From: a virus
Virus record (IMG/VR): IMGVR_UViG_3300039412_000015
Location: 1-29,377 of that record
Length of the DNA: 29,377 nucleotides
Reading direction: 5' to 3' (one strand)
This document shows positions 6,483-29,181 of the stretch, one piece after another. Every line of letters starts with the position of its first letter. Positions within the stretch are counted from its first letter, which is position 1. The translations under genes were made by a program, and so were the position numbers. The notes beneath the pieces are model-generated. The model had not been told where the DNA came from. It did no database searches and saw only the letters and a program-made list of their open reading frames with translations.

Positions 6483-6929
6483 TTACTCGCAAAGTTTAGT
6501 TACTTCATTTACATTATGAGTCCATTTCATTTTATCATCTATCGAAATCATAAAAGTGGGGATACTTCTTATGCCATATTGCGCTGCAATTTGCGGGCAT
6601 TCATCAATATCTATGATTTCTACCCTCAGACCGAGGGATATGGCTTTTAATAGGGCTGGCTTCGCTTCCTGACAGGGCTTGCACCACTTGGCAGTAAAGG
6701 CCAAAACCTTAACCGGAGCGCAACAGGGAGGCCGTGGCGCATCCGGTTTCTTGGGTTTACAGGGTCCAGGACATGGACAAGGTGGTTTTACGGGTTCAGG
6801 GACCGGAACAACCACCGGAGCGGGTGGTTGAACAGGAGTTGGTTGTTTGGGGCAAGCATAAATGCTTAAAACAACAACGCCAATTATAATTAATACAATT
6901 ATCAAAATACCTTTATTTTTCTTCGTCAT
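6483..6929 (-). CDS. Membrane- or lipid-anchored thioredoxin with Pro/Cys-rich stalk, 148 aa
   Basis: Three parts (numbering from M at 6929). Residues 1-26 are a Lys-rich start and a hydrophobic helix (ILIIVLIIIGVVVLSIYAC); Cys26 sits in a weak lipobox-like IYAC. Residues 27-72 are a Pro/Val stalk that becomes Cys-rich (PPCPCPGPC, later PPCCAP). Residues 73-148 are a thioredoxin fold: VLAFTAKWCKPC with the redox pair at 83 and 86, an IIDIDECPQIAAQYGI segment and cis-Pro in SIPTF. The catalytic domain should lie outside the inner membrane. ATG 6929 is preferred over ATG 6938 because AAAAGG stands nine bases before it. It may reduce or exchange disulfides in envelope proteins, possibly those of the neighbouring C1 peptidase. 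Confidence 0.85.
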   Translation of the reverse strand: MTKKNKGILIIVLIIIGVVVLSIYACPKQPTPVQPPAPVVVPVPEPVKPPCPCPGPCKPKKPDAPRPPCCAPVKVLAFTAKWCKPCQEAKPALLKAISLGLRVEIIDIDECPQIAAQYGIRSIPTFMISIDDKMKWTHNVNEVTKLCE

Positions 6930-20184: not shown

Positions 20185-20229
20185 CTATTCCCTTTCCTCA
20201 AGATATAAAGCAGCGCTATTTGTACTCAT
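20185..20229 (-). CDS. Micro-ORF (14 aa), possible true N-terminus of the downstream small gene
   Basis: ATG 20229 overlaps the stop of the nozzle gene (ATGA) and is preceded by AGAAGGAG at ideal spacing, one of the best ribosome sites in the window. It reads MSTNSAALYLEERE and then TAG. The strong ribosome site would be odd for a 14-residue dead end. The frame of the next gene lies one base back and continues in the same style (GIDLPRTPNT), so the two could be one gene broken by an indel or joined by frameshifting. Confidence 0.4.
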   Translation of the reverse strand: MSTNSAALYLEERE

Positions 20230-22628
20230 GGTATTCTCCTTCTGCCAGCCTCCTTCGTCACTGCCGTTATCTCTTCAACAGCCCATTTCTTGCCGCTTAC
20301 TCCGGTTAACTTCAAGACAAAGGCTTGGCCGCGACACGCCGGATGAACAGAAGCATTCAAACCAGCAATCCAAGTTCCTGTATCACTTGCAGCAGCAGAC
20401 CAAACTCCTTCAAATGTATCGGCACATTGAATAGCCCATGTTATATCCCCGCTATCGGAAGATAGAACCCCGTCCAACGAAAGCATGGTTCCTATTTGAT
20501 ATATTGTAGGTGCCGCCGTACTGGTTGATGATAATGCAATTGGGCCTAAGAAAGCATAACTCGTAAAATTAGCACCGCAATCAGTAAAGGCTAAATCACT
20601 ATATCGTCTTAATTTACCATCGCGTCCACCTAAAATTACTCCAGATTGTTCAATTGCAAGTGATTGAACCGTACAGCTTGATGTTGGTTCGTGATCTGAA
20701 TTCAAGGATACCGGCCAATATGTTTTAGTTGTCCAATCAAACCACCAATGCAATCTTGCATTAGAAGAAGTCGATGTAAGATAAATATGAATCCCTCGCC
20801 CTTGAACATCATATTCAATAGAGGGAATTACCATATCGGGATTGATATTTGTAAATTCTGCCGGTAAAGTATCGCGTGAAATAGAAACGGGATAAGCATC
20901 GCCTCCGGCATCAAGCGAATACAGTCCATCTAATGATAAGAAAATCATGCTTCCATCAGGACAAATACACCACGCATTAGCTCCAATAATGCCTACGGTG
21001 CGGCTTAGACTAATTAAAATCCCACCATTAGCAGGATCGCCAGTCATCCGCCACAACGAACTACGGCAGCCAATAACAAGATAGTCGTCACTATGGACCG
21101 CAAGTGCTGTTATGGGATCGCCGGGCATCCCGGCTGTGCTGGAGGTGCCTGCAACGGCCCTTTGAACATCCATAGCAATTGGCGCATAATCCCAGTCAGT
21201 TTCATTATTCTGCCGAGACATATACCATACATGGGGGGCAACTGCTGCCCCAGCCAACACAATCCTGCTACTAAAATATGCAATTAAGGGACATCCCGTG
21301 GGTACTTGACCAACTGTAGAAGTCCAGATTACTAAAGAATCGTCTGAGGGATCGTAAACTTTAGGAGCACGTTCAACTCGATATGAACAAGCCCCAGAGC
21401 CGGCAGTAGTGGCGAGTGTTAAACTGGCGTTTCCAGATGTGATGGTAAATTCATATGTACCGGCAATAGCCGTTCCTTGCGGCTCTGTAACTACGACCAC
21501 CATATCATTTGGTAAAGCTCCGGCAGTTGTCCAATTCGATATACTAGTTGCCGTAAATATAGTATCGCTTATCGTACCATCAGTCCCCACGGCAACTGGC
21601 GTTCCGTAGTCTGCAATATATAACTGTTGACCGCTTTGTGTAGCATCAATTGCTACATCTGAATTGATGGTAAGAGTTTCGGTGACGTATTCAATCCAAC
21701 CGTAGGGATGTTCTTTATACAAATAACCACCGGCAGAAGCAACTAACATAGACCGTAATGCGTTAGTAGTTCCTGTAGAATAATATTGAGCGCGATAAAC
21801 ATTAGTAAGACATAATCCACCGGCCACAGTACATTGCATTCCAAATCCAACTCGACACCCAACTCTATGACTTACGGCTTGAGAATAAATTTGTACTCCA
21901 TTCCAATAGATTGTTACGTCAGTATTATCAACAAGTGCTGACAACAAAGCCGGTTGTGCCGTTAAATTATCTCCAGTAAATATAATCGGAGTTAATGTAG
22001 TGTTAGTGGGAGTTCCACCATCAACAACGCTAAAAGTCCCCGTGTATGCCATAGAATTAGCTGTCAATACTAATTCAATCATTACGCCATCGTTTTTAAT
22101 GTTTGGGGTAGTATTATCCAAGAATAGATATATTCTATACTTCCCAGCAAATCCATCCATCGTAGGCGTAATCAGCATATCTACTGAATAGGCTTTAGAA
22201 GTATCAATTGGCAATAATTTGAGAACAGCTTCACCAAGAAATTGCGTAGTATCCACGCTCGCTAATGCTGTAGGAAGAATTTTAGGCATAGCAATAGCCA
22301 CGCCGCCGTTTGTCCAAAGAGGTGCCGACCATGCAGATGACATGGCTGTTCCGTCAAATACGTCAGACCATGCCGTAAATCCATCCCCTAAAGCTAACGT
22401 CATGGGAGCCAACATCCGTACAGAACCAGCTAGAGCGTTGGTGTAGGCGTGTTCTAGTCCAGGCCGAGAGCCACCTCTAAGCCGTCCATCCAAGACGGAC
22501 TTGGGACGGACATTAAGAAGGTCAGAAGATGTATAAGGAGCCTGTTGTCTGTAGGCGGCTTGACGGTTTAGACCTCCTAAAGGAAACTGCACATTGATCT
22601 GACGTTGTTTTTGCTTGGATATTGCCAT
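20226..22628 (-). CDS. Tail nozzle / neck protein, T7 gp12-like by position and architecture, 800 aa
   Basis: The N-terminus FPLGGLNRQAAYRQQAPYTS, then LLNVRP and LRGGSRPGL, is a start I know from large podoviral neck/nozzle proteins. Beta-rich throughout: residues about 130-270 look like a concanavalin-type insert (YRIYLFLDNTTPNI), residues about 349-420 hold an inserted beta domain shared with the adaptor, and residues about 440-680 look like propeller blades (ALAVHSDDYLVIGCRSSLWRM, GSMIFLSLDGLYSLDAGG, LHWWFDWTTKTYWPVSL). I chose ATG 22628 over TTG 22631. It would form the short tail tube below the adaptor. Confidence 0.75.
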   Translation of the reverse strand: MAISKQKQRQINVQFPLGGLNRQAAYRQQAPYTSSDLLNVRPKSVLDGRLRGGSRPGLEHAYTNALAGSVRMLAPMTLALGDGFTAWSDVFDGTAMSSAWSAPLWTNGGVAIAMPKILPTALASVDTTQFLGEAVLKLLPIDTSKAYSVDMLITPTMDGFAGKYRIYLFLDNTTPNIKNDGVMIELVLTANSMAYTGTFSVVDGGTPTNTTLTPIIFTGDNLTAQPALLSALVDNTDVTIYWNGVQIYSQAVSHRVGCRVGFGMQCTVAGGLCLTNVYRAQYYSTGTTNALRSMLVASAGGYLYKEHPYGWIEYVTETLTINSDVAIDATQSGQQLYIADYGTPVAVGTDGTISDTIFTATSISNWTTAGALPNDMVVVVTEPQGTAIAGTYEFTITSGNASLTLATTAGSGACSYRVERAPKVYDPSDDSLVIWTSTVGQVPTGCPLIAYFSSRIVLAGAAVAPHVWYMSRQNNETDWDYAPIAMDVQRAVAGTSSTAGMPGDPITALAVHSDDYLVIGCRSSLWRMTGDPANGGILISLSRTVGIIGANAWCICPDGSMIFLSLDGLYSLDAGGDAYPVSISRDTLPAEFTNINPDMVIPSIEYDVQGRGIHIYLTSTSSNARLHWWFDWTTKTYWPVSLNSDHEPTSSCTVQSLAIEQSGVILGGRDGKLRRYSDLAFTDCGANFTSYAFLGPIALSSTSTAAPTIYQIGTMLSLDGVLSSDSGDITWAIQCADTFEGVWSAAASDTGTWIAGLNASVHPACRGQAFVLKLTGVSGKKWAVEEITAVTKEAGRRRIP

Positions 22629-22637
22629 CAAGCTAAC

Positions 22638-22817
22638 CTATTTCTGTTTAGTGCGTTTCCAAATTTCTCTTCTAATCTCTCTTTGTAAAGCCATTTTTCC
22701 CGTAGGTAGATTCGTTTTTGGGGGCGCAGTTATGGCCTTTGCAACTTTGGGTAGATGTACTTCTACCTTCTTTGGCTTTTTTATATTCAGTTTAAACGCC
22801 TTTTTCTTTTTAGCCAT
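22638..22817 (-). CDS. Very basic small protein, 59 aa
   Basis: This frame fills the space between the 109-aa gene (8-bp overlap) and the nozzle gene (9 bases downstream). The product starts MAKKKKAFKLNIKKPKKVEV and ends QREIRREIWKRTKQK. Lys and Arg make up about a third of residues and only two are acidic before the final helix. It is Pro-containing and probably disordered with a C-terminal amphipathic helix. It could bind packaged DNA or an acidic virion surface. No family recognised. Confidence 0.65.
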   Translation of the reverse strand: MAKKKKAFKLNIKKPKKVEVHLPKVAKAITAPPKTNLPTGKMALQREIRREIWKRTKQK

Positions 22818-23139
22818 TGTAAACTTTCAATCCCTTCTGTACAAACTCTTCGTAGAGTCCAAAAGTATCTTGATTAAGTTCCTTTTTCTCGTCCAGCTTC
22901 TTTAATGAGGCTACAATTAAATCCATAGCCTTTTCGCCAATTTGAATATCCTTCATCGGATCAGCCTCAGCTTCCCACTTAACCTGCTGTCCATCATTAG
23001 AAAGTTTGAGGGACTTTGTTTCTTCTTCGCTAAACGAAAGAGCCTCTCGCAGTTGTCTTACTATTTTGAGAGTAAGGAAATCACCCGTTGCAGGAAGAAT
23101 ACCAAGCAAAACAATACGATCTTTAACACAAAGTTTCAT
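22810..23139 (-). CDS. Conserved-type small phage protein, 109 aa
   Basis: The sequence starts MKLCVKDRIVLLGILPATGD, then LKIVRQLREALSFSEEE, then IGEKAMDLIVASLKKLDEK and ends EEFVQKGLKVYNG. I recall similar small all-alpha proteins (DRxxLLxxLP at the start, then SFSEEE, then a final YExF-like helix) in virion operons of other phages, without known function. GAGAGG precedes ATG 23139. It is the first gene after the terminator at 23161-23200. A chaperone-like or assembly role fits its size and position, but is unproven. Confidence 0.7.
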   Translation of the reverse strand: MKLCVKDRIVLLGILPATGDFLTLKIVRQLREALSFSEEETKSLKLSNDGQQVKWEAEADPMKDIQIGEKAMDLIVASLKKLDEKKELNQDTFGLYEEFVQKGLKVYNG

Positions 23140-23160
23140 TTGAACCTCTCTTCAAAAAGT

Positions 23161-23200
23161 AAAAATAACCCAGCGGGGCCTTTGAAGGAATCCCGCTGGG
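23161..23200 (-). terminator. Intrinsic terminator after the 337-aa virion gene (copy B of a related hairpin pair)
   Basis: CCCAGCGGG (23169-23177) and CCCGCTGGG (23192-23200) form a perfect 9-bp stem around a 14-nt loop. On the minus strand it is followed by TTATTTTTACTTTTT. It begins 17 bases after the stop of the gene at 23217-24230. Loop and flanks match those of the hairpin at 27517-27548. Confidence 0.85.
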
Positions 23201-23216
23201 AGTAAATCACAAATCA

Positions 23217-24230
23217 TCACGGAATATATGTTCCAGCGAAGATGAAATGCACAACCCCATCAGGAGTTTTCACCGGAATAGCATGAGTTGAAGTTAGTGT
23301 CTTACCGGCAGCAGCTACGACAACCGTGCAGTTAGTAAAATCAATAACTTGAGTTCCGATAGAACCGATAGCAAGAGCAGTAGGCATGGTTCCACCCGTA
23401 TTTTCAATTTTTATAGCGGCTGTAGCTGTCCCTGCGTTGCATTTAATATGCAAGATGTCAGGAACCGTAGTGCCTGCACCATTTTGACTAAACAGAACAA
23501 CATCAGTAATACCTCCACCCGTATTGACGTTAGTTGCTTCCAATACTGCAACAGCATTAGGACCGGCAGGAGTAACTGTGCCGGTACCTTGTATCGAAAA
23601 GTAGCCAGCCAAGCATTCTCCCGTCGTAATCGTCACAGCACCGTCAATGGAAACTGACGCTTGCAGAATGGATGATTGATTGACATTATGGGCAATACTC
23701 TGCCGTAATTCAACGCAATTATGATTAGTAAGTGGAGTAGCCCCGCCAGTATCAACTTGCAATCGCATAGCAGCAATGTCGTATGCTGAACTTCCGGTAT
23801 TCTTCAAATTGACTTGAATCGGAACCCAATGGTCGCCATTAAGCACCACATTCATCGGCGTAGACCAAGTACCGATTGCGATAAATGGATGGCTTCTACC
23901 ACTGGCATAAAGTGGAGTCAGACCAGAAAAATCCAATACCCCATTTGCACTAGCAATAAGTGCTTTAGAAGCCGTAACAACCCCGGCAGTTGCCGTAAGC
24001 AAAACAGTATCCTCAGTCATAACCGCATCAAAATTACAAGCAGCTTCCGTACCTTCATTGACATAGAGGGATGTTCCGGCACCCCCATTGGTTGCCTGAT
24101 AAAGGCAACCAGTTTCATAACCCGGCAATCCATCAGTAGGAATTGACGCAGTTAGGCCGCTGCTAAACAACCATCCTGATGTTAAGCGAACGGGTTTCAT
24201 TTTCAACAGTGAATGAATTTTTGTGGCCAT
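23217..24230 (-). CDS. Virion surface/head-fibre-type protein, 337 aa
   Basis: Beta-rich with a low content of charged residues. Motifs: TGCLYQATNGGAGTSLYVNE near residues 41-60, common near the start of phage head-fibre and surface proteins; an aromatic GDHWVPIQVNLKN strand near 132; and an end of PVKTPDGVVHFIFAGTYIP, a typical closing pair of strands. The middle has a repeated Thr/Gly/Asn-rich beta pattern (GAVTITTGECLAGYFS, GTGTVTPAGPNAVAV). GAGGAAA nine bases before ATG 24230 is a good ribosome site. It lies between small capsid-type proteins and its own terminator, so it is probably an abundant structural protein. Exact location on the particle unknown. Confidence 0.7.
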   Translation of the reverse strand: MATKIHSLLKMKPVRLTSGWLFSSGLTASIPTDGLPGYETGCLYQATNGGAGTSLYVNEGTEAACNFDAVMTEDTVLLTATAGVVTASKALIASANGVLDFSGLTPLYASGRSHPFIAIGTWSTPMNVVLNGDHWVPIQVNLKNTGSSAYDIAAMRLQVDTGGATPLTNHNCVELRQSIAHNVNQSSILQASVSIDGAVTITTGECLAGYFSIQGTGTVTPAGPNAVAVLEATNVNTGGGITDVVLFSQNGAGTTVPDILHIKCNAGTATAAIKIENTGGTMPTALAIGSIGTQVIDFTNCTVVVAAAGKTLTSTHAIPVKTPDGVVHFIFAGTYIP

Positions 24231-24283
24231 TGATGGCTTTCCTCATAGTAAAAGTAACGATATATAAAAACGCAAACAATAAA

Positions 24284-24334
24284 CTATTCTAAATAAGTAG
24301 CGGCTTTACGAAGTAGCTCAGGGGAATCATTCAT
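24284..24334 (-). CDS. Micro-ORF, 16 aa (21 aa from the upstream in-frame ATG)
   Basis: Lies in the 153-bp gap between the 94-aa and 337-aa genes. ATG 24334 has GAGGAAAA at good spacing and gives MNDSPELLRKAATYLE. An in-frame ATG at 24346 would add five residues. The peptide is an acidic-basic amphipathic helix. The second half of a two-frame 30-residue element, see the companion micro-ORF. Nothing else is visible in the gap. Confidence 0.35.
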   Translation of the reverse strand: MNDSPELLRKAATYLE

Positions 24335-24374
24335 ATTTTTCCTCATGGCAATATGTACATCTTTTGGTTAGCAT
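24327..24374 (-). CDS. Micro-ORF, 15 aa, Cys-pair peptide
   Basis: ATG 24374 follows GGGGG by five bases and gives MLTKRCTYCHEEKYE with a CxxC pair, then TGA. It overlaps the start of the other micro-ORF in a different frame; a +1 shift would join them into a roughly 30-residue Cys-pair peptide. The GGGGG site is part of the duplicated 3' end of the paralogous genes upstream, so the frame may be accidental. Confidence 0.3.
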   Translation of the reverse strand: MLTKRCTYCHEEKYE

Positions 24375-24383
24375 TATATCCCC

Positions 24384-24668
24384 CTAATAGGTATACACGA
24401 TAAGACCGCCCTGTTGCCAAGTACCTTGTCCCCCATTTCCGATTGCATATATTGCCTTCCTGGCATCTGCCCCTTCGATTGCTACAGGACTTCCACCTGT
24501 AAATAACTGTACTCCTTTACCAGCTACGGCATCTTCTCCAAGTCCAAGGGCAACTTGAGTAGAGCTACCGATTGAATGTTGAATAAACAACGAATCCCTA
24601 TAGGGATCGGCGGGCACAATAAGAGTGCTATTTCCGTCAGTAAGCGACCATGAGCCTTTTCTAGCCAT
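24384..24668 (-). CDS. Small beta-rich virion protein, 94 aa (paralogue B)
   Basis: Shares with its upstream neighbour the segments GSW near the start, STLIVPADPYRDSLFIQ, VALGLGEDAVAGKGVQ, TGG, and DARKAIYAIGNGGQGTW. This is clearly a tandem duplicate. The pattern (strands with PA-x-x-YRD and GE-A-x-x-G) resembles small decoration or cement proteins in phage heads. ATG 24668 has GGGG eight bases upstream. No Cys, no membrane segment. Probably a repeated surface subunit of the capsid or neck. Confidence 0.72.
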   Translation of the reverse strand: MARKGSWSLTDGNSTLIVPADPYRDSLFIQHSIGSSTQVALGLGEDAVAGKGVQLFTGGSPVAIEGADARKAIYAIGNGGQGTWQQGGLIVYTY

Positions 24669-24679
24669 TATATGTACCC

Positions 24680-24994
24680 CTAATAGGTAAAAGCAATTAC
24701 TTCGCCAGTTTGGAAATAACCAGTTCCGGTTCCGCCACTTGCAAGGCCATAGATTGCCTTACGGGCTTCAGGACCATGAATAGTTAAGATAGAACCGCCA
24801 GTATAAAATTGTGCCCCTTGGCCAGCAACGGCGTCCTCTCCAAATCCAAGAGCAACCTGAACTCCTCCGGGTTGTGTAATCTCATATTGCAGAAACAAGT
24901 GATCCCGATAAGCGTTAGCGGGAACAATTATTGAACTTGTCCCCGTAGCTGTCCATGAACCGGCACGACCTGAAGTATTTGTTGCGTATGCCAT
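24680..24994 (-). CDS. Small beta-rich virion protein, 104 aa (paralogue A)
   Basis: Tandem paralogue of the 94-aa protein immediately downstream. Common segments include SSIIVPANAYRDHLFLQ, VQVALGFGEDAVAGQGAQ, FYTGG and EARKAIYGLASGG. It is about ten residues longer at the N-terminus (AYATNTSGRAG). The genes also share the same end (Thr-Tyr-stop followed by a G run that serves as the next gene's ribosome site). ATG 24994 follows the stop of the 156-aa gene by three bases. A decoration-like role is likely; the two copies may occupy non-equivalent sites. Confidence 0.72.
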   Translation of the reverse strand: MAYATNTSGRAGSWTATGTSSIIVPANAYRDHLFLQYEITQPGGVQVALGFGEDAVAGQGAQFYTGGSILTIHGPEARKAIYGLASGGTGTGYFQTGEVIAFTY

Positions 24995-24997
24995 TTG

Positions 24998-25468
24998 TTA
25001 TCCTATTGCTTCGTAGTTAATGTAATAAGTTTCGTCACAGTCTTGAAAGTCAAGAGTAAATCCGCCATCATCCATTGAAACAAAATTTGCAGTTACGGGA
25101 GGGCTATCTCCATCGGCAACAGATATACGAATACAATGATCCGCTCCAATATCCTGAACTACTCCGTAGGACGCATACACTTGATTGCCGCTTTCGTCAG
25201 CGTGTCCAAGACTCGTGGAAACATTATCTTGTTTAGCAGCACAGGTAAAACGCAGTAATTTAGGCTTAAAACCCATACCACTTACCGAATAGTGTCCAGA
25301 ATTATCGGGACTAGGACACGAAAATTGTCCAACCCTAACTTTGCTTACAACTAGCGGAATAATCGCCGGAATAATTGTCGGCACAACTAATGGTACAACT
25401 AACGGCGCAATTACTGGAGCGATATTCTCTGATACTGCTTGTACTATTCCACGCGAAGGCTGAGGCAT
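24998..25468 (-). CDS. Virion protein with hydrophobic Pro-every-fourth-residue stalk and beta C-domain, 156 aa
   Basis: Residues 16-41 repeat a tetrad with Pro at 18, 22, 26, 30, 34 and 38 and Val/Ile/Leu/Ala between (IAPVIAPLVVPLVVPT and onward). Residues about 44-156 form a beta domain: VGQFSCP, GMGFKPKLLRFTCA, SVADGDSPPV, FVSMDDGGFTLDF and TYYINYEAIG. The G-F-x-P-K...DGGFTL...YEAIG arrangement is a recurrent phage fibre or surface module. The stalk is uncharged and could be a rigid oligomeric rod or a membrane-active tip. ATG 25468 follows the upstream stop closely. Confidence 0.72.
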   Translation of the reverse strand: MPQPSRGIVQAVSENIAPVIAPLVVPLVVPTIIPAIIPLVVSKVRVGQFSCPSPDNSGHYSVSGMGFKPKLLRFTCAAKQDNVSTSLGHADESGNQVYASYGVVQDIGADHCIRISVADGDSPPVTANFVSMDDGGFTLDFQDCDETYYINYEAIG

Positions 25469-25470
25469 TA

Positions 25471-25824
25471 TTATCCTCCTGGAGCAGCTTGTTGTTGTTG
25501 TGGCTGAGGCGGAATTAATCCCGATCCCTGAGTCTGTTGTTGCAACTGTTTAGTTTGTGGATTTTGCAGAACTTTCTTTTGGTCTGGCGTAGGTTGATCT
25601 GCAATAGGCTGTGCCCCTAAGAGATGGGCTAAAGCTTGCATTGCAGGAGGTGTAAACCACGTCCTAACTTCATTTGCCTTGTGCATGGCAAGTTCTTGAG
25701 TTGTCAGTGGCTTGTTCACATTATCAAAGTATGCCCTTCTCTCTGCTAACTTCTTAGATATAAATTCGTCTACTCGTTTGCGTTCTGCTATTCTGGCTTC
25801 GTATTCTTCTTTTGTTTCTTGCAT
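25471..25824 (-). CDS. Charged, Gln-rich hypothetical protein, 117 aa
   Basis: Residues 1-45 are a charged helix (MQETKEEYEARIAERKR, continuing KKLAERRAYF). A middle helical part reads MHKANEVRTWFTPPAMQALAHLLGA. The tail is low-complexity Gln/Pro (QTKQLQQQTQGSGLIPPQPQQQQ). The ATG overlaps the stop of the adaptor gene. Small proteins of this build downstream of head-tail connector genes are common in phages and may be structural or assembly factors. No family recognised. Confidence 0.62.
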   Translation of the reverse strand: MQETKEEYEARIAERKRVDEFISKKLAERRAYFDNVNKPLTTQELAMHKANEVRTWFTPPAMQALAHLLGAQPIADQPTPDQKKVLQNPQTKQLQQQTQGSGLIPPQPQQQQAAPGG

Positions 25825-26843
25825 TATATTACCTGATTGTGGTACGTAATTGGGTATACCGTACCCGTATACCCACGCCTAAATTCAAGATCAATATTTT
25901 CTTTATGGCCCATAGCCCCAAAGTATCTTGCGCCATGTTTCATATCACGATTAATTGCATCAATAAGTAATGCCTTAAATTGTTCGGTATGTTGTCCAGG
26001 TGCATCATTGATACGGCTTTCCGCGATAGCCAAACATGATTCTAAATAAAGTTCCGAAAGATACATTCCGCCAAGGGGGTACGGATAAGTAGTTGTGAGT
26101 GGTCCATTATAAGCTTCATATTCGTAAGATAATTCATAATTTTGATCCGGGGTGGGAAAGAACATGATTTCCTGGCGTTGCCCGGTTTGTTTCTCAGGTG
26201 TCGTCAAACGCGGCTTGTAGCGAATTGCGGCGTGCGTAGGCGCGCCCGTGAAATCACTCCAAGTTCGCATCTGCATCAACTTACCAACGCTTACAAGCAC
26301 AATAGAGGCGTAATATGTGGCCGGTGGGAAGTGGAGAGTTCCAATCAATCGTCCAAAATCATCCGGGAGGTCATAGTCGGCACTCATACTAAAGTAGTAG
26401 TTACAATTACCTACTCCGATGCTTTCCGCAAGAGTAACTGTGTTGCCGCTTACATTAGAAATTTCATAAGTACCATTGACAACCGTACCACTTAAATTGG
26501 TGATATTAACTACCATCCCGGAAGTAACACCTTTAGCAACCCAATCAGAGACACTCGTTGCTGTTAAGGCCGTTCCATTAACAGCGCCATCAGACCCGGC
26601 GATAGCGGCTGCGCCATAAATATTCATTGTAGTTGTAGGTCGTAACCAACTCCATTCATATCCTAAAGTCTGTGCTTCTACAGCAGGTGGATAATATACA
26701 CGACGAATACCGCTCTGTACATTAGCATCTATTGTTGCTAATTGTACAGCAGTATAATCAGTCGTAAGTTTTCTTCCATATCCAAGGAAGAAGCCGACTT
26801 CAGCACAGAAATCAGGATAACCTAAACTTAAACCCGCTTCCAT
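25824..26843 (-). CDS. Head-to-tail adaptor protein (T7 gp11-like role) with inserted beta domain, 339 aa
   Basis: The N-terminus (FCAEVGFFLGYGRKLT, then DANVQSGIRRVYYPP) and the C-terminal two-thirds are typical of podoviral adaptor proteins: SADYDLPDDFGRLIGTLHFPP and QEIMFFPTPDQNYELSYEYEAY, ending in a helical bundle (SELYLESCLAIAESRIND). Between them, residues 84-152 are an extra domain (GTALTATSVSDW, MVVNITN, NGTYEISNVSGNTVTLAE) related to one in the nozzle protein. Position two genes after the capsid and before the nozzle supports the call. GAGG stands ten bases before ATG 26843. It would sit between portal and nozzle. Confidence 0.78.
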   Translation of the reverse strand: MEAGLSLGYPDFCAEVGFFLGYGRKLTTDYTAVQLATIDANVQSGIRRVYYPPAVEAQTLGYEWSWLRPTTTMNIYGAAAIAGSDGAVNGTALTATSVSDWVAKGVTSGMVVNITNLSGTVVNGTYEISNVSGNTVTLAESIGVGNCNYYFSMSADYDLPDDFGRLIGTLHFPPATYYASIVLVSVGKLMQMRTWSDFTGAPTHAAIRYKPRLTTPEKQTGQRQEIMFFPTPDQNYELSYEYEAYNGPLTTTYPYPLGGMYLSELYLESCLAIAESRINDAPGQHTEQFKALLIDAINRDMKHGARYFGAMGHKENIDLEFRRGYTGTVYPITYHNQVI

Positions 26844-26879
26844 TATTTGTTTTCCTCATCTTTATAACTCATAAAAATT

Positions 26880-26924
26880 TTAAAAATTGCTACAGCCTAC
26901 CGAAGAGAGAAAGTAGGCTGTAGC
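26880..26924 (-). terminator. Strong intrinsic terminator after the putative decoration gene
   Basis: GCTACAGCCTAC (26889-26900) pairs perfectly over 12 bp with GTAGGCTGTAGC (26913-26924) around a 12-nt loop. On the minus strand it is followed by AATTTTT and another T run. It lies 25 bases past the stop of the gene at 26949-27455 and before the adaptor gene. Confidence 0.9.
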
Positions 26925-26948
26925 TTGAACAACCCAGGTTGGTTATGA

Positions 26949-27455
26949 TTACGCACACAAAGCTTGAGTAGCGCCAGTTTCCAAATAAGCTAAAACTTTC
27001 TGGAATGCGGCAGTACCCGCAATGGTCTGTAAAGCAAGGGCACTACCCTTACCAGAAGAAGAGTTGAGTTTGAATGTTCCAGCCCAACTACCAGTAGTTG
27101 CACTAGCGTCATAGCTACAAACAAGAGCAGTATTGGCGGCTAAAACCGTAGTGACATTATATGTCAATACATTGCATACGCTTCCAGGGCCGTAAATTTG
27201 TATAAGTTGTCCAGTGGGACTAGCGGCATAATCGGCGGCGGCTACACCGGCGAAGATTCCGCCAGAAGCACAAACTTTTACGCGGGTCCATCTGCGGGCA
27301 TCGGCTACGGTTGCGGCACCAACGGGAGTAGCAACGTCAACCGAGTCGCGCTGCACTCCTTGTCCTTCTTTAATAGCATCCACGCCAATGTACCAAACCC
27401 ATTCAGGAAATACAGGACCACATTTTAACGGAGAATTAATACTAAAATCAGGCAT
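26949..27455 (-). CDS. Putative capsid decoration / head protein, 168 aa
   Basis: Starts MPDFSINSPLKCGPVFPEWV, followed by a beta-rich chain with low charge (RWTRVKVCASGGIFAGVAAADY, GQLIQIYGPGSVCNVLTYN, NTALVCSYDASATTG), ending GATQALCA. Such Ala/Gly/Val-rich beta proteins directly after the major capsid gene often decorate the head. The pattern GxxxGVAAxDY and Q-I-Y-GPGS is similar to DUF2190-like decoration proteins, but I only infer this. Good ribosome site (GAAAGG) before ATG 27455. It is bracketed by two terminators, so it probably has its own high expression level. Confidence 0.68.
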   Translation of the reverse strand: MPDFSINSPLKCGPVFPEWVWYIGVDAIKEGQGVQRDSVDVATPVGAATVADARRWTRVKVCASGGIFAGVAAADYAASPTGQLIQIYGPGSVCNVLTYNVTTVLAANTALVCSYDASATTGSWAGTFKLNSSSGKGSALALQTIAGTAAFQKVLAYLETGATQALCA

Positions 27456-27514
27456 TAAATTAACCTTTCAAAAAACTTCCTACTAACTCCAGCCTTCCAT
27501 GATAAAAAATCCAT
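27455..27514 (-). CDS. Micro-ORF, 19 aa, leader-like
   Basis: ATG 27514 lies right behind the terminator stem; the frame reads MDFLSWKAGVSRKFFERLI and its TAA overlaps the ATG of the decoration gene (TAATG). The peptide is a basic amphipathic helix. No ribosome site precedes it, but the exact TAATG coupling is striking. It may be a leader or chance. Confidence 0.28.
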   Translation of the reverse strand: MDFLSWKAGVSRKFFERLI

Positions 27515-27548
27515 AACCCGGAGGGGCCGTTTAAGGAATCCCTCCGGG
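27504..27548 (-). terminator. Intrinsic terminator after the major capsid gene (copy A of a related hairpin pair)
   Basis: CCCGGAGGG (27517-27525) and CCCTCCGGG (27540-27548) form a perfect 9-bp stem around a 14-nt loop. The minus-strand continuation is TTATGGATTTTTT, so the T run starts about seven bases past the stem, which may make it leaky. It lies 15 bases after the capsid gene's stop. Related to the hairpin at 23169-23200. Confidence 0.8.
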
Positions 27549-27563
27549 AGAAAATACTATTTA

Positions 27564-28658
27564 TTACGCACCAGTAGTAAGCACACCCTGCCTACGCAAG
27601 TTAGTGCAAACCATCTGTAAAGTGCAATCGAGGTCCACGCGACGAACTAGATGCCGTCCGGGAACCATATACGGCTTGGTAAGTTGATTTTCCCAGCCTT
27701 CCAAAACACCGCAAGCCAACCATTTCCAATCCAGCATAAAAACTGGATTATTGGAATTTGATACCGTTGGATCAACAGAACCATTCCAAGTCGTGCCCAC
27801 GGCACAAGCGCCATTTAAATATGGCACATAAGTAACCGGAGAACTCTGGAAACGAACCTTACCCTCGTAGCTATCAAGATCGCCACCAAGGCTCATATTT
27901 TGCTGTTCGAGTAATTCCTTCAGTAGAATATAAGTATTACGGTTAGTATAAATACCATTCTTCATGTTGCCTAGCTCAGGTGTTGAGTGAGTAACCGGAG
28001 AACGGAAATTAATATCCAAAGCCATATAACACATCTTACGTAGCAAATCTTCTTTGCTAACATCAGTATATTGTCCGGTCCAGTTTTGCCAACGCTTAGG
28101 ATAGGTAGCGGCCAAGATACCAGCTTTCCCTGTGCCAGTAAATCCAACAGGATCGGGGCCATTGAATCCAGAAGTATTAGACTGGGTAACCCAATAACCA
28201 ATACCATAAGGGGTTTTGGTGTCGGAGCTATCTGAGGGTTTGCCCCAGAGAACAGCCTCAAGATACTCATACAAGCTAACCATCATAGCGGTGTATCGGG
28301 TCTGAACCAAATCGACGATAGAAACTCCACCGCGCTGGAAATCTGGTTCCCGTTGATCGTATTCGTAGAACGCATTAATATGGCGAGGTTGGACTGTACC
28401 CTTAGCCATCGTATCGTTAATGGCACCGCCATCAGTTTCGTATAATCCAACAGCACGAGCACTATGATTGTGGTCTGTTTGGATTTCAAATTCCCACGGA
28501 TTACCGCCCTCAAACTTACGCTGTCTATTTTTCCAGACCTCTCTCACAGCCACATGGTCAGATAGATCAGTCTGCAAATCCACAAATGCACCTCTTTTAA
28601 CTAGCTCTTGCTGAGTCAAAAGAACTGCGTCATCAATATCAGAAAACTGTAAGGTCAT
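27564..28658 (-). CDS. Major capsid protein (HK97-fold type), 364 aa
   Basis: The protein forms the icosahedral head shell. N-terminal region: DAVLLTQQELVKRGAFVDLQ, a helix, then VWKNRQRKFEGGNPWEFEIQ, with the PW and beta strand of the E-loop region. The middle has VQPRHINAFYEYDQREPDF and a long spine-like helix (VDLVQTRYTAMMVSLYEYLE). Late: a P-domain strand set with FQSSPVTYVPYL and the end PGRHLVRRVDLDCTLQMVCTN. The size is normal. I place it by general HK97-fold features, by position after a scaffold-like gene and by the strong terminator behind it. ATG 28658 has AAAGG about eleven bases upstream. Confidence 0.82.
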   Translation of the reverse strand: MTLQFSDIDDAVLLTQQELVKRGAFVDLQTDLSDHVAVREVWKNRQRKFEGGNPWEFEIQTDHNHSARAVGLYETDGGAINDTMAKGTVQPRHINAFYEYDQREPDFQRGGVSIVDLVQTRYTAMMVSLYEYLEAVLWGKPSDSSDTKTPYGIGYWVTQSNTSGFNGPDPVGFTGTGKAGILAATYPKRWQNWTGQYTDVSKEDLLRKMCYMALDINFRSPVTHSTPELGNMKNGIYTNRNTYILLKELLEQQNMSLGGDLDSYEGKVRFQSSPVTYVPYLNGACAVGTTWNGSVDPTVSNSNNPVFMLDWKWLACGVLEGWENQLTKPYMVPGRHLVRRVDLDCTLQMVCTNLRRQGVLTTGA

Positions 28659-28671
28659 AGTACATAAGCCT

Positions 28672-29181
28672 TTACGTCAAATCCTCAAGGTACTGAACAG
28701 CAGCTTGAAGGATATTTTTGTTATCATTTGCTAATCCAAGCATCATATTACATTTCTGGCAAAGCCAACCCCTGAAGGCTCCGGTCCTATGGTTATGATC
28801 GAGATGAAGTTTAGATTTGCACATAGTTTCCAGAATTCCACAGAGAGCGCACTTACCTGTAAATGTTGCTTCCAATTGTTCAGCGGTTAGAGTACAGGCC
28901 ACATGGCATCGCGCATTCGCGGCAACCCTAGATTGTTGTAGAGCTTTTTTAAACCTATTCTCATTACGCCATCTTTTCAAATTTTCACCAACATGCCCGG
29001 AATTATTTTTGACCCAGTCACGAGCACGCCGATTAACAATCGCACGGTTGTCATCGCGGTATTTCGCATCGCGGATAGCACAACATTGTTTGCATTTATA
29101 TTTCAGACCATCTTTATTTCTAAGACATTTCTGAAACTCGCCCTCCTCTTTACTCTCTCCACACTTACTACAAATTTTCAT
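28672..29181 (-). CDS. Free-standing endonuclease VII / HNH-type nuclease, 169 aa
   Basis: A metal-dependent DNA endonuclease. The N-terminus is a zinc ribbon (ICSKCGES with Cys 4 and 7, and CKQCC at 30-34). A basic helical middle follows (RRARDWVKNN, RWRNENRFKK). The C-terminal catalytic part has CALC at 111-114, LHLDHNHRTG at 125-134 with the beta-beta-metal His, FRGWLCQKCN at 137-146 and LGLANDN. This is the recombination endonuclease VII (PF02945) pattern. It lies three bases after the gene upstream and 13 bases before the capsid gene, inside the head operon, which is typical of mobile homing-type nucleases. An intended junction-cutting role is the alternative. Confidence 0.87.
   Translation of the reverse strand: MKICSKCGESKEEGEFQKCLRNKDGLKYKCKQCCAIRDAKYRDDNRAIVNRRARDWVKNNSGHVGENLKRWRNENRFKKALQQSRVAANARCHVACTLTAEQLEATFTGKCALCGILETMCKSKLHLDHNHRTGAFRGWLCQKCNMMLGLANDNKNILQAAVQYLEDLT

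Follow-up and report, generated by a model that had tools for sequence, protein, structure and literature searches.

A conserved-loop RNA hairpin between two putative terminators among the structural genes of an uncultured phage

In the phage sequence IMGVR_UViG_3300039412_000015, a stretch of 29,377 nucleotides (nt) that was analyzed as a whole and is hereafter called the window, we found an RNA hairpin, termed element B, that lies 3' of the gene next after the capsid gene. Element B consists of a stem of about 13 base pairs (bp) and a loop ending in UCUCUUC, and belongs to the sense strand; the sequence of the stem is free, while its pairing and the loop are constrained. In one clade of related phages it is fixed at this place. 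It lies between two further hairpins, the twins, which closely resemble each other and, on the transcribed (minus) strand, each stand at the end of a gene. A preliminary description of this DNA dealt with the twins and saw in them terminators with a conserved loop of additional function. Its general idea of a loop conserved for a further function is not supported for the twins, but it does hold for element B, which was absent from its list. From the sequences, it is probable that the twins are lineage-specific terminators and that element B is a partial stop, or the 3' end of a messenger RNA (mRNA), whose loop is read by a partner.

Element B in the window and its relatives

Relatives of the window phage were gathered by a capsid profile, which gave 80 loci (designated L followed by a number), and element B was picked out when the hairpins in the gaps between their genes were listed. 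The window copy reads GCTACAGCCTACT-TTCTCTCTTC-GGTAGGCTGTAGC followed by AATTTTTAAAATTTTT, and is located 3' of the gene after the capsid gene (gene 2) and 5' of a gene for an SU10-type adaptor (gene 3). At 39 distinct loci, the same gap holds a hairpin with an unrelated yet paired stem and a loop keeping CUCUUC, e.g. in L006, L010, L013, L028 and L149 (several contigs had been fetched twice under different locus numbers, and the count refers to distinct loci). Its distance from the stop of gene 2 is 14-59 nt (median about 24 nt), with a single outlier (L080), and in the standard arrangement it lies 12-45 nt before gene 3.

A covariance model was built from 20 copies, which match it by construction, and gave the window copy 42.6 bits. 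At E-values up to 1, it matched 52 places in 1.47 Mb of the relatives' loci, all on the sense strand and at most one per locus, and every match that could be placed fell in the gap between genes 2 and 3. On the capsid tree, the loop trait required two changes, as compared to a mean of 18.1 when the labels were shuffled. Where element B is lacking, gene 2 is longer, at about 350 amino acids (aa), and has an extra inserted region; the relatives concerned include the prophage of Cerasicoccus frondis (L089), the only cultured lysogen found.

Comparison of the window with 4227 Rfam families gave no match above the gathering score, and a permissive search of positions 26800-27600 returned only sub-threshold matches at chance level. 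Literature searches on conserved-loop phage hairpins, CUCUUC loops and Verrucomicrobia phages likewise found nothing relevant. Hairpins behind phage capsid genes are already known as such; what is new in element B is an RNA motif that resembles a terminator but conserves its loop.

Covariation and strand

Pairs were counted only in the 20 copies with a 10-nt loop. The loops range from 8 to 13 nt, for which reason a MAFFT alignment of 34 copies misregisters the stems. In the 20 copies, 98.1% of the 260 stem cells were paired, against 46% after shuffling, and double changes occurred in 131 cells, against 42, at 13 out of 13 pairs. The covariation score was 1.31; shuffling lowered it to 0.26, and sliding the pairing by 1-3 columns to 0.28 or less. 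In a set of 24 sequences, all 11 inner stem positions were paired in 24 of 24, by many types of pairs. The last six loop bases, CUCUUC, were each kept in at least 33 of the 34 rows. Element B thus combines compensatory changes above the controls with a conserved unpaired sequence, as expected of a conserved structured RNA motif.

At stem positions 1-11 of the 33 correctly placed rows there were about 42 G-U cells and no A-C cells. The only A-C cells came from the L115 row, which had been anchored at the wrong place (the loop of the true L115 hairpin is CTCCTCTCTCTTC). A strand-symmetric constraint on DNA would give the two kinds equally, so the presence of G-U without A-C means that element B acts as sense-strand RNA. 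This selection on one strand speaks against an action as DNA, i.e. as a cruciform or as a hotspot of insertion or recombination, which the inserts between element B and gene 3 in L010, L103, L115 and L127 might otherwise suggest; a DNA signal was accordingly rejected as a candidate, and we consider this alternative highly improbable.

Possible functions of element B

In the window copy the stem runs directly into a U-rich tract (AATTTTTAAAATTTTT), as it does in 21 of the 39 copies. Five or more T among the first 10 nt 3' of the stem, as found at these 21 loci, were seen in 6.9% of random windows and in none of the 39 stretches before the stem. This excess makes termination, or descent from terminators, likely. 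A plain intrinsic terminator, with a pyrimidine loop conserved for reasons of folding or of RNA polymerase or NusA and without any dedicated partner, would explain the T-rich tails and the position at a gene end. However, the tail is lacking in 18 of the 39 copies, so termination can account for part of the function at most. All kinds of loops, moreover, are seen in the other terminator-like hairpins of these phages, and across 289 Verrucomicrobiota genomes the covariance model matched only once, at a site flanked by a flavodoxin-like gene and a glutamine-synthetase-like gene (both named from their translations). On these grounds we regard a plain terminator as rather unlikely. The single match was taken as chance, and a host type of terminator was rejected as well.

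Element B may also be a processing site or a stabilizing hairpin, i.e. a target of a double-strand-specific nuclease or a block to a 3' exonuclease, which would set the half-life of the capsid mRNA while its loop contacts a nuclease or chaperone. A 13-bp stem that is perfect whatever its sequence, the short median distance from the gene 2 stop, the copies without T-rich tails and the tRNA-like genes directly downstream of element B in L103, L115 and L127 would all fit such a role. Cleavage of a double strand does not, however, require conservation of the loop, and as judged from sequence this role is somewhat doubtful.

The loop is kept despite inserts before gene 3, and element B therefore belongs with the message of the capsid gene and gene 2, not with the site where translation of gene 3 starts. 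A pseudoknot, in which the loop would pair in cis with the ribosome-binding site of gene 3, was rejected both on this account and for want of excess complementarity.

In the mechanism that we propose as the economical one, element B would provide a partial stop or a stabilized 3' end for the message of the capsid gene and gene 2, whose products are required in the greatest quantity. Capsid and gene 2 protein would thereby be produced in excess over the adaptor and tail proteins, and a trans-acting protein or RNA would recognize the loop and set stability or read-through. Against this mechanism stand the tailless copies, which termination alone does not explain, and the search for pairing partners, in which the complementarity of the loop was not above chance within 70 nt downstream or 300 nt upstream and no loop partner was found. 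A narrower form of the proposal is that the UCUCUUC loop of this new phage RNA motif is recognized by an RNA-binding protein of the phage or of Verrucomicrobiota, making element B a regulated stop or stabilizer that sets the ratio of capsid to tail protein; we put this forward tentatively, as a real possibility.

The twin hairpins

The twins have 9-bp stems, 8 of the pairs being GC, and 14-nt loops, at the coordinates and with the flanks (ATAACCC and GGGAG) that the preliminary description gave. On the plus strand, the stems read CCCAGCGGG/CCCGCTGGG and CCCGGAGGG/CCCTCCGGG, and the loops GCCTTTGAAGGAAT and GCCGTTTAAGGAAT. The two stem differences (A/G and C/A) are each compensated in the opposite arm, as had been noted. 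The loops are nearly the same, sharing 12 of their 14 bases, and only two of the four bases called variable actually differ. As transcribed from the minus strand, the element is CCC[A/G]G[C/A]GGG-AUUCCUU[CAAA/AAAC]GGC-CCC..GGG, followed by UUAUUUUUACUUUUU in copy 1 or UUAUGGAUUUUUUAUC in copy 2. The folds have predicted energies of -24.4 kcal/mol (z -5.4) for copy 1 and -21.2 kcal/mol (z -2.2) for copy 2. Within the 14-nt loop, an AUU/C internal loop and an inner stem of 2-3 bp (CC/GG) are predicted, which makes the apparent conservation of the loop partly structural.

The two copies lie 4.3 kb apart, and their 52-nt regions are identical at 37 positions, the next best place in the window reaching 27. 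The core pattern, with up to 3 mismatches allowed, occurs at only these two places in the window, where 0.17 would be expected by chance. This makes it very unlikely that the two are alike by chance, and common descent accounts for their likeness most simply. There is good support for one copy having arisen from the other within the lineage, with selection holding the pairing.

A GC-rich hairpin on the transcribed strand and a U-rich tract directly 3' of the stem characterize both twins. The tail of copy 1, TTATTTTTACTTTTT, is T-rich and its U tract, UUAUUUUUACUUUUU, is good; copy 2 has the T-rich tail TTATGGATTTTTTATC. As far as sequence can tell, the twins are well supported as paralogous Rho-independent terminators that punctuate the structural gene cluster of this uncultured phage. 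They are ordinary members of the intrinsic terminator class, detected in a single phage species. This retains the earlier view of them as terminators under selection for their fold, in keeping with gene ends, T-rich tails and compensated pairs, but two sequences with two changed pairs are thin evidence for such selection. What speaks against the account of the twins given here is the tail of copy 2, whose U tract (UUAUGGAUUUUUUAUC) is interrupted and which is less than ideal for termination, as well as the hairpins behind the capsid gene in L028 and L035, which share the AUU(U)/C internal loop of the twins. The latter are suggestive of a weak common architecture, but internal loops of 3-4 x 1 are frequent among the hairpins of these genomes.

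The conserved loop (AUUCCUU....GGC) had been proposed as a functional motif, involved in e.g. protein binding or recombination. Two copies with largely shared loops and compensated stems, together with the internal loops of L028 and L035, are what this proposal can draw on. In IMG/VR, however, the core was found in four stretches only, namely three contigs of this phage (about 99% identical) and a chance match in a coding region without homology to the window, while a scan of 388 Verrucomicrobiota genomes gave one chance-like match. Homologous positions in relatives are furthermore occupied by unrelated loops. These are the very outcomes that the preliminary description had named as refuting its reading. 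L006, whose capsid is about 90-95% identical, is the nearest relative. It preserves the flank GGATTTTTTATCA.GGAAGGCTGGAG behind the capsid gene, but the hairpin preceding this flank at the position of copy 2, CCCTAGAGCAGG-ATGGCTCATAAACCG-CCTGCTCTAGGG, is unrelated to the twin in both hairpin and loop. Hairpins also stand behind the capsid gene in some 18 other relatives, every one with a stem and loop of its own, and many relatives have none there. The one recognizable orthologue of the copy 1 site, 5' of the orthologue of the 109-aa gene in L021, carries CCCAGGCGGCA-aaa-TGCCGCCTGGG, and other unrelated hairpins are found at the probable syntenic place in further relatives. Unrelated hairpins at homologous sites imply that the position of the terminator is retained while the hairpin itself turns over. 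The twin loop has no family-wide function; as a family motif it was rejected on the exact core scans, and a role as conserved functional motif is very unlikely. Capture of the twins from a host was also rejected, given the one match in the 388 genomes.

Neighboring genes

The positions of the hairpins and of the genes around them are collected in Table 1. All substantial genes between about 6.5 kb and the right end of the window lie on the minus strand.

Table 1. Hairpins and neighboring genes in the window.
Feature	Position	Strand	Remarks
109-aa gene	22810-23139	-	3' of copy 1
Twin copy 1	23155-23200	-	Stem-loop 23169-23200, T-rich tail reaching 23155; in the 77-nt gap from the 337-aa gene to the 109-aa gene
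337-aa gene	23217-24230	-	No assigned function; 5' of copy 1
Gene 3, head-tail adaptor (SU10 adaptor family)	25824-26843	-	PF24175, E 2.3e-7; synteny in relatives; start 45 nt after the element B stem
Element B, T-rich tail	26873-26888	-	AATTTTTAAAATTTTT
Element B, conserved-loop hairpin	26889-26924	-	13-bp stem 26924-26912/26901-26889; loop 26911-26902, UUCUCUCUUC; with tail 26924-26873
Gene 2, between capsid and adaptor genes	26949-27455	-	Alignment A6; about 100 aa shorter than in relatives
GGA block	27456-27500	-	GG..GGAG....AGTAGGAAG
Twin copy 2	27500-27548	-	Stem-loop 27517-27548, tail TTATGGATTTTTTATC; behind the major head protein gene
Major head (capsid) protein gene	27564-28658	-	phrog_9953 major head protein matched by 14 of 29 aligned relatives (best E 2.5e-8)
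Endonuclease VII-like gene	28672-29181	-	PHROG match, E 1.7e-24; immediately 5' of the capsid gene

The capsid family corresponds to the phrog_9953 major head protein through its other members; the window copy itself had no match in the protein family searches. Gene 2 of the window matched neither PHROG nor Pfam, and from its position only it is suspected to encode a head decoration protein. Both the window and L006 lack the C-terminal part of about 100 aa that gene 2 has in the other relatives of the clade. A domain of about 75 aa (..TATS.S.W...G....MVV..T...GT...GTYE...) is inserted both in the adaptor and in an 801-aa protein (20226-22631), the two copies of the domain being 42% identical, and L041 and L055 have similar inserts in their adaptors.

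Between element B and the adaptor gene there seems to be a hotspot of insertion, with tRNA-like genes, an HNH-type endonuclease gene and small open reading frames (L103, L115, L127; L010:12013-12514). Between the terminator behind the capsid gene and gene 2 there is a conserved block with repeated GGA, found also at L006:6370-6455 and L068:11085-11162 and, as AGTC-GGA-GACT or AGCC-GGA-GGCT hairpins, in L022, L025 and L021. It could be a promoter or a CsrA-like leader. In L149, two hairpins in the gaps near 6584 and 7047 have inner loops, CCCAATCGG and GCCGATTGGC, that are largely complementary to each other.

Phage group, host and significance

Searches with tblastn, using three different capsid queries, detected no recognizable relative in 50,697 INPHARED phage records. 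Relatives of the capsid are encoded in three genome records, namely Cerasicoccus frondis, a Verrucomicrobia metagenome-assembled genome and a Balneolia metagenome-assembled genome, and the capsid gene was present in 2 of the 388 genomes searched in the phylum of Cerasicoccus frondis. A Verrucomicrobiota host is likely for the phage group, and we infer one for the phage of the window. Element B is a strongly covarying RNA with a fixed loop in a phage group unmatched among the sequenced phages searched, whose probable hosts belong to a phylum with a scant record of phage biology. Judging by the position of element B, the ratio of capsid to tail protein may be set at the RNA level, and the loop offers a ready bait for an RNA-binding protein in these hosts.

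Comparison with known systems

The twins share with Rho-independent terminators the GC-rich hairpin, the T-rich tail, the location at gene ends and the transcribed strand. About half of the copies of element B likewise have a GC-rich hairpin and a T-rich tail at a gene end, but element B differs in keeping its loop sequence across a phage clade, often without the T tract. In phage T7, which has its own polymerase, the terminator T-phi stands behind capsid gene 10. Like element B, it is a hairpin standing just after the capsid gene or genes and ahead of the head-tail genes, where it is positioned to reduce the expression of what follows; the likeness considered here is one of position, and the T-phi loop is not known as a conserved family motif. 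Phage RNA hairpins bound by protein include boxB, the target of N, and the MS2 operator. The loop of element B differs from these in being a pyrimidine run on the 3' side of a gene and in having a partner protein that is only postulated, but it shares with them the division of constraints, i.e. pairing in the stem and sequence in the loop.

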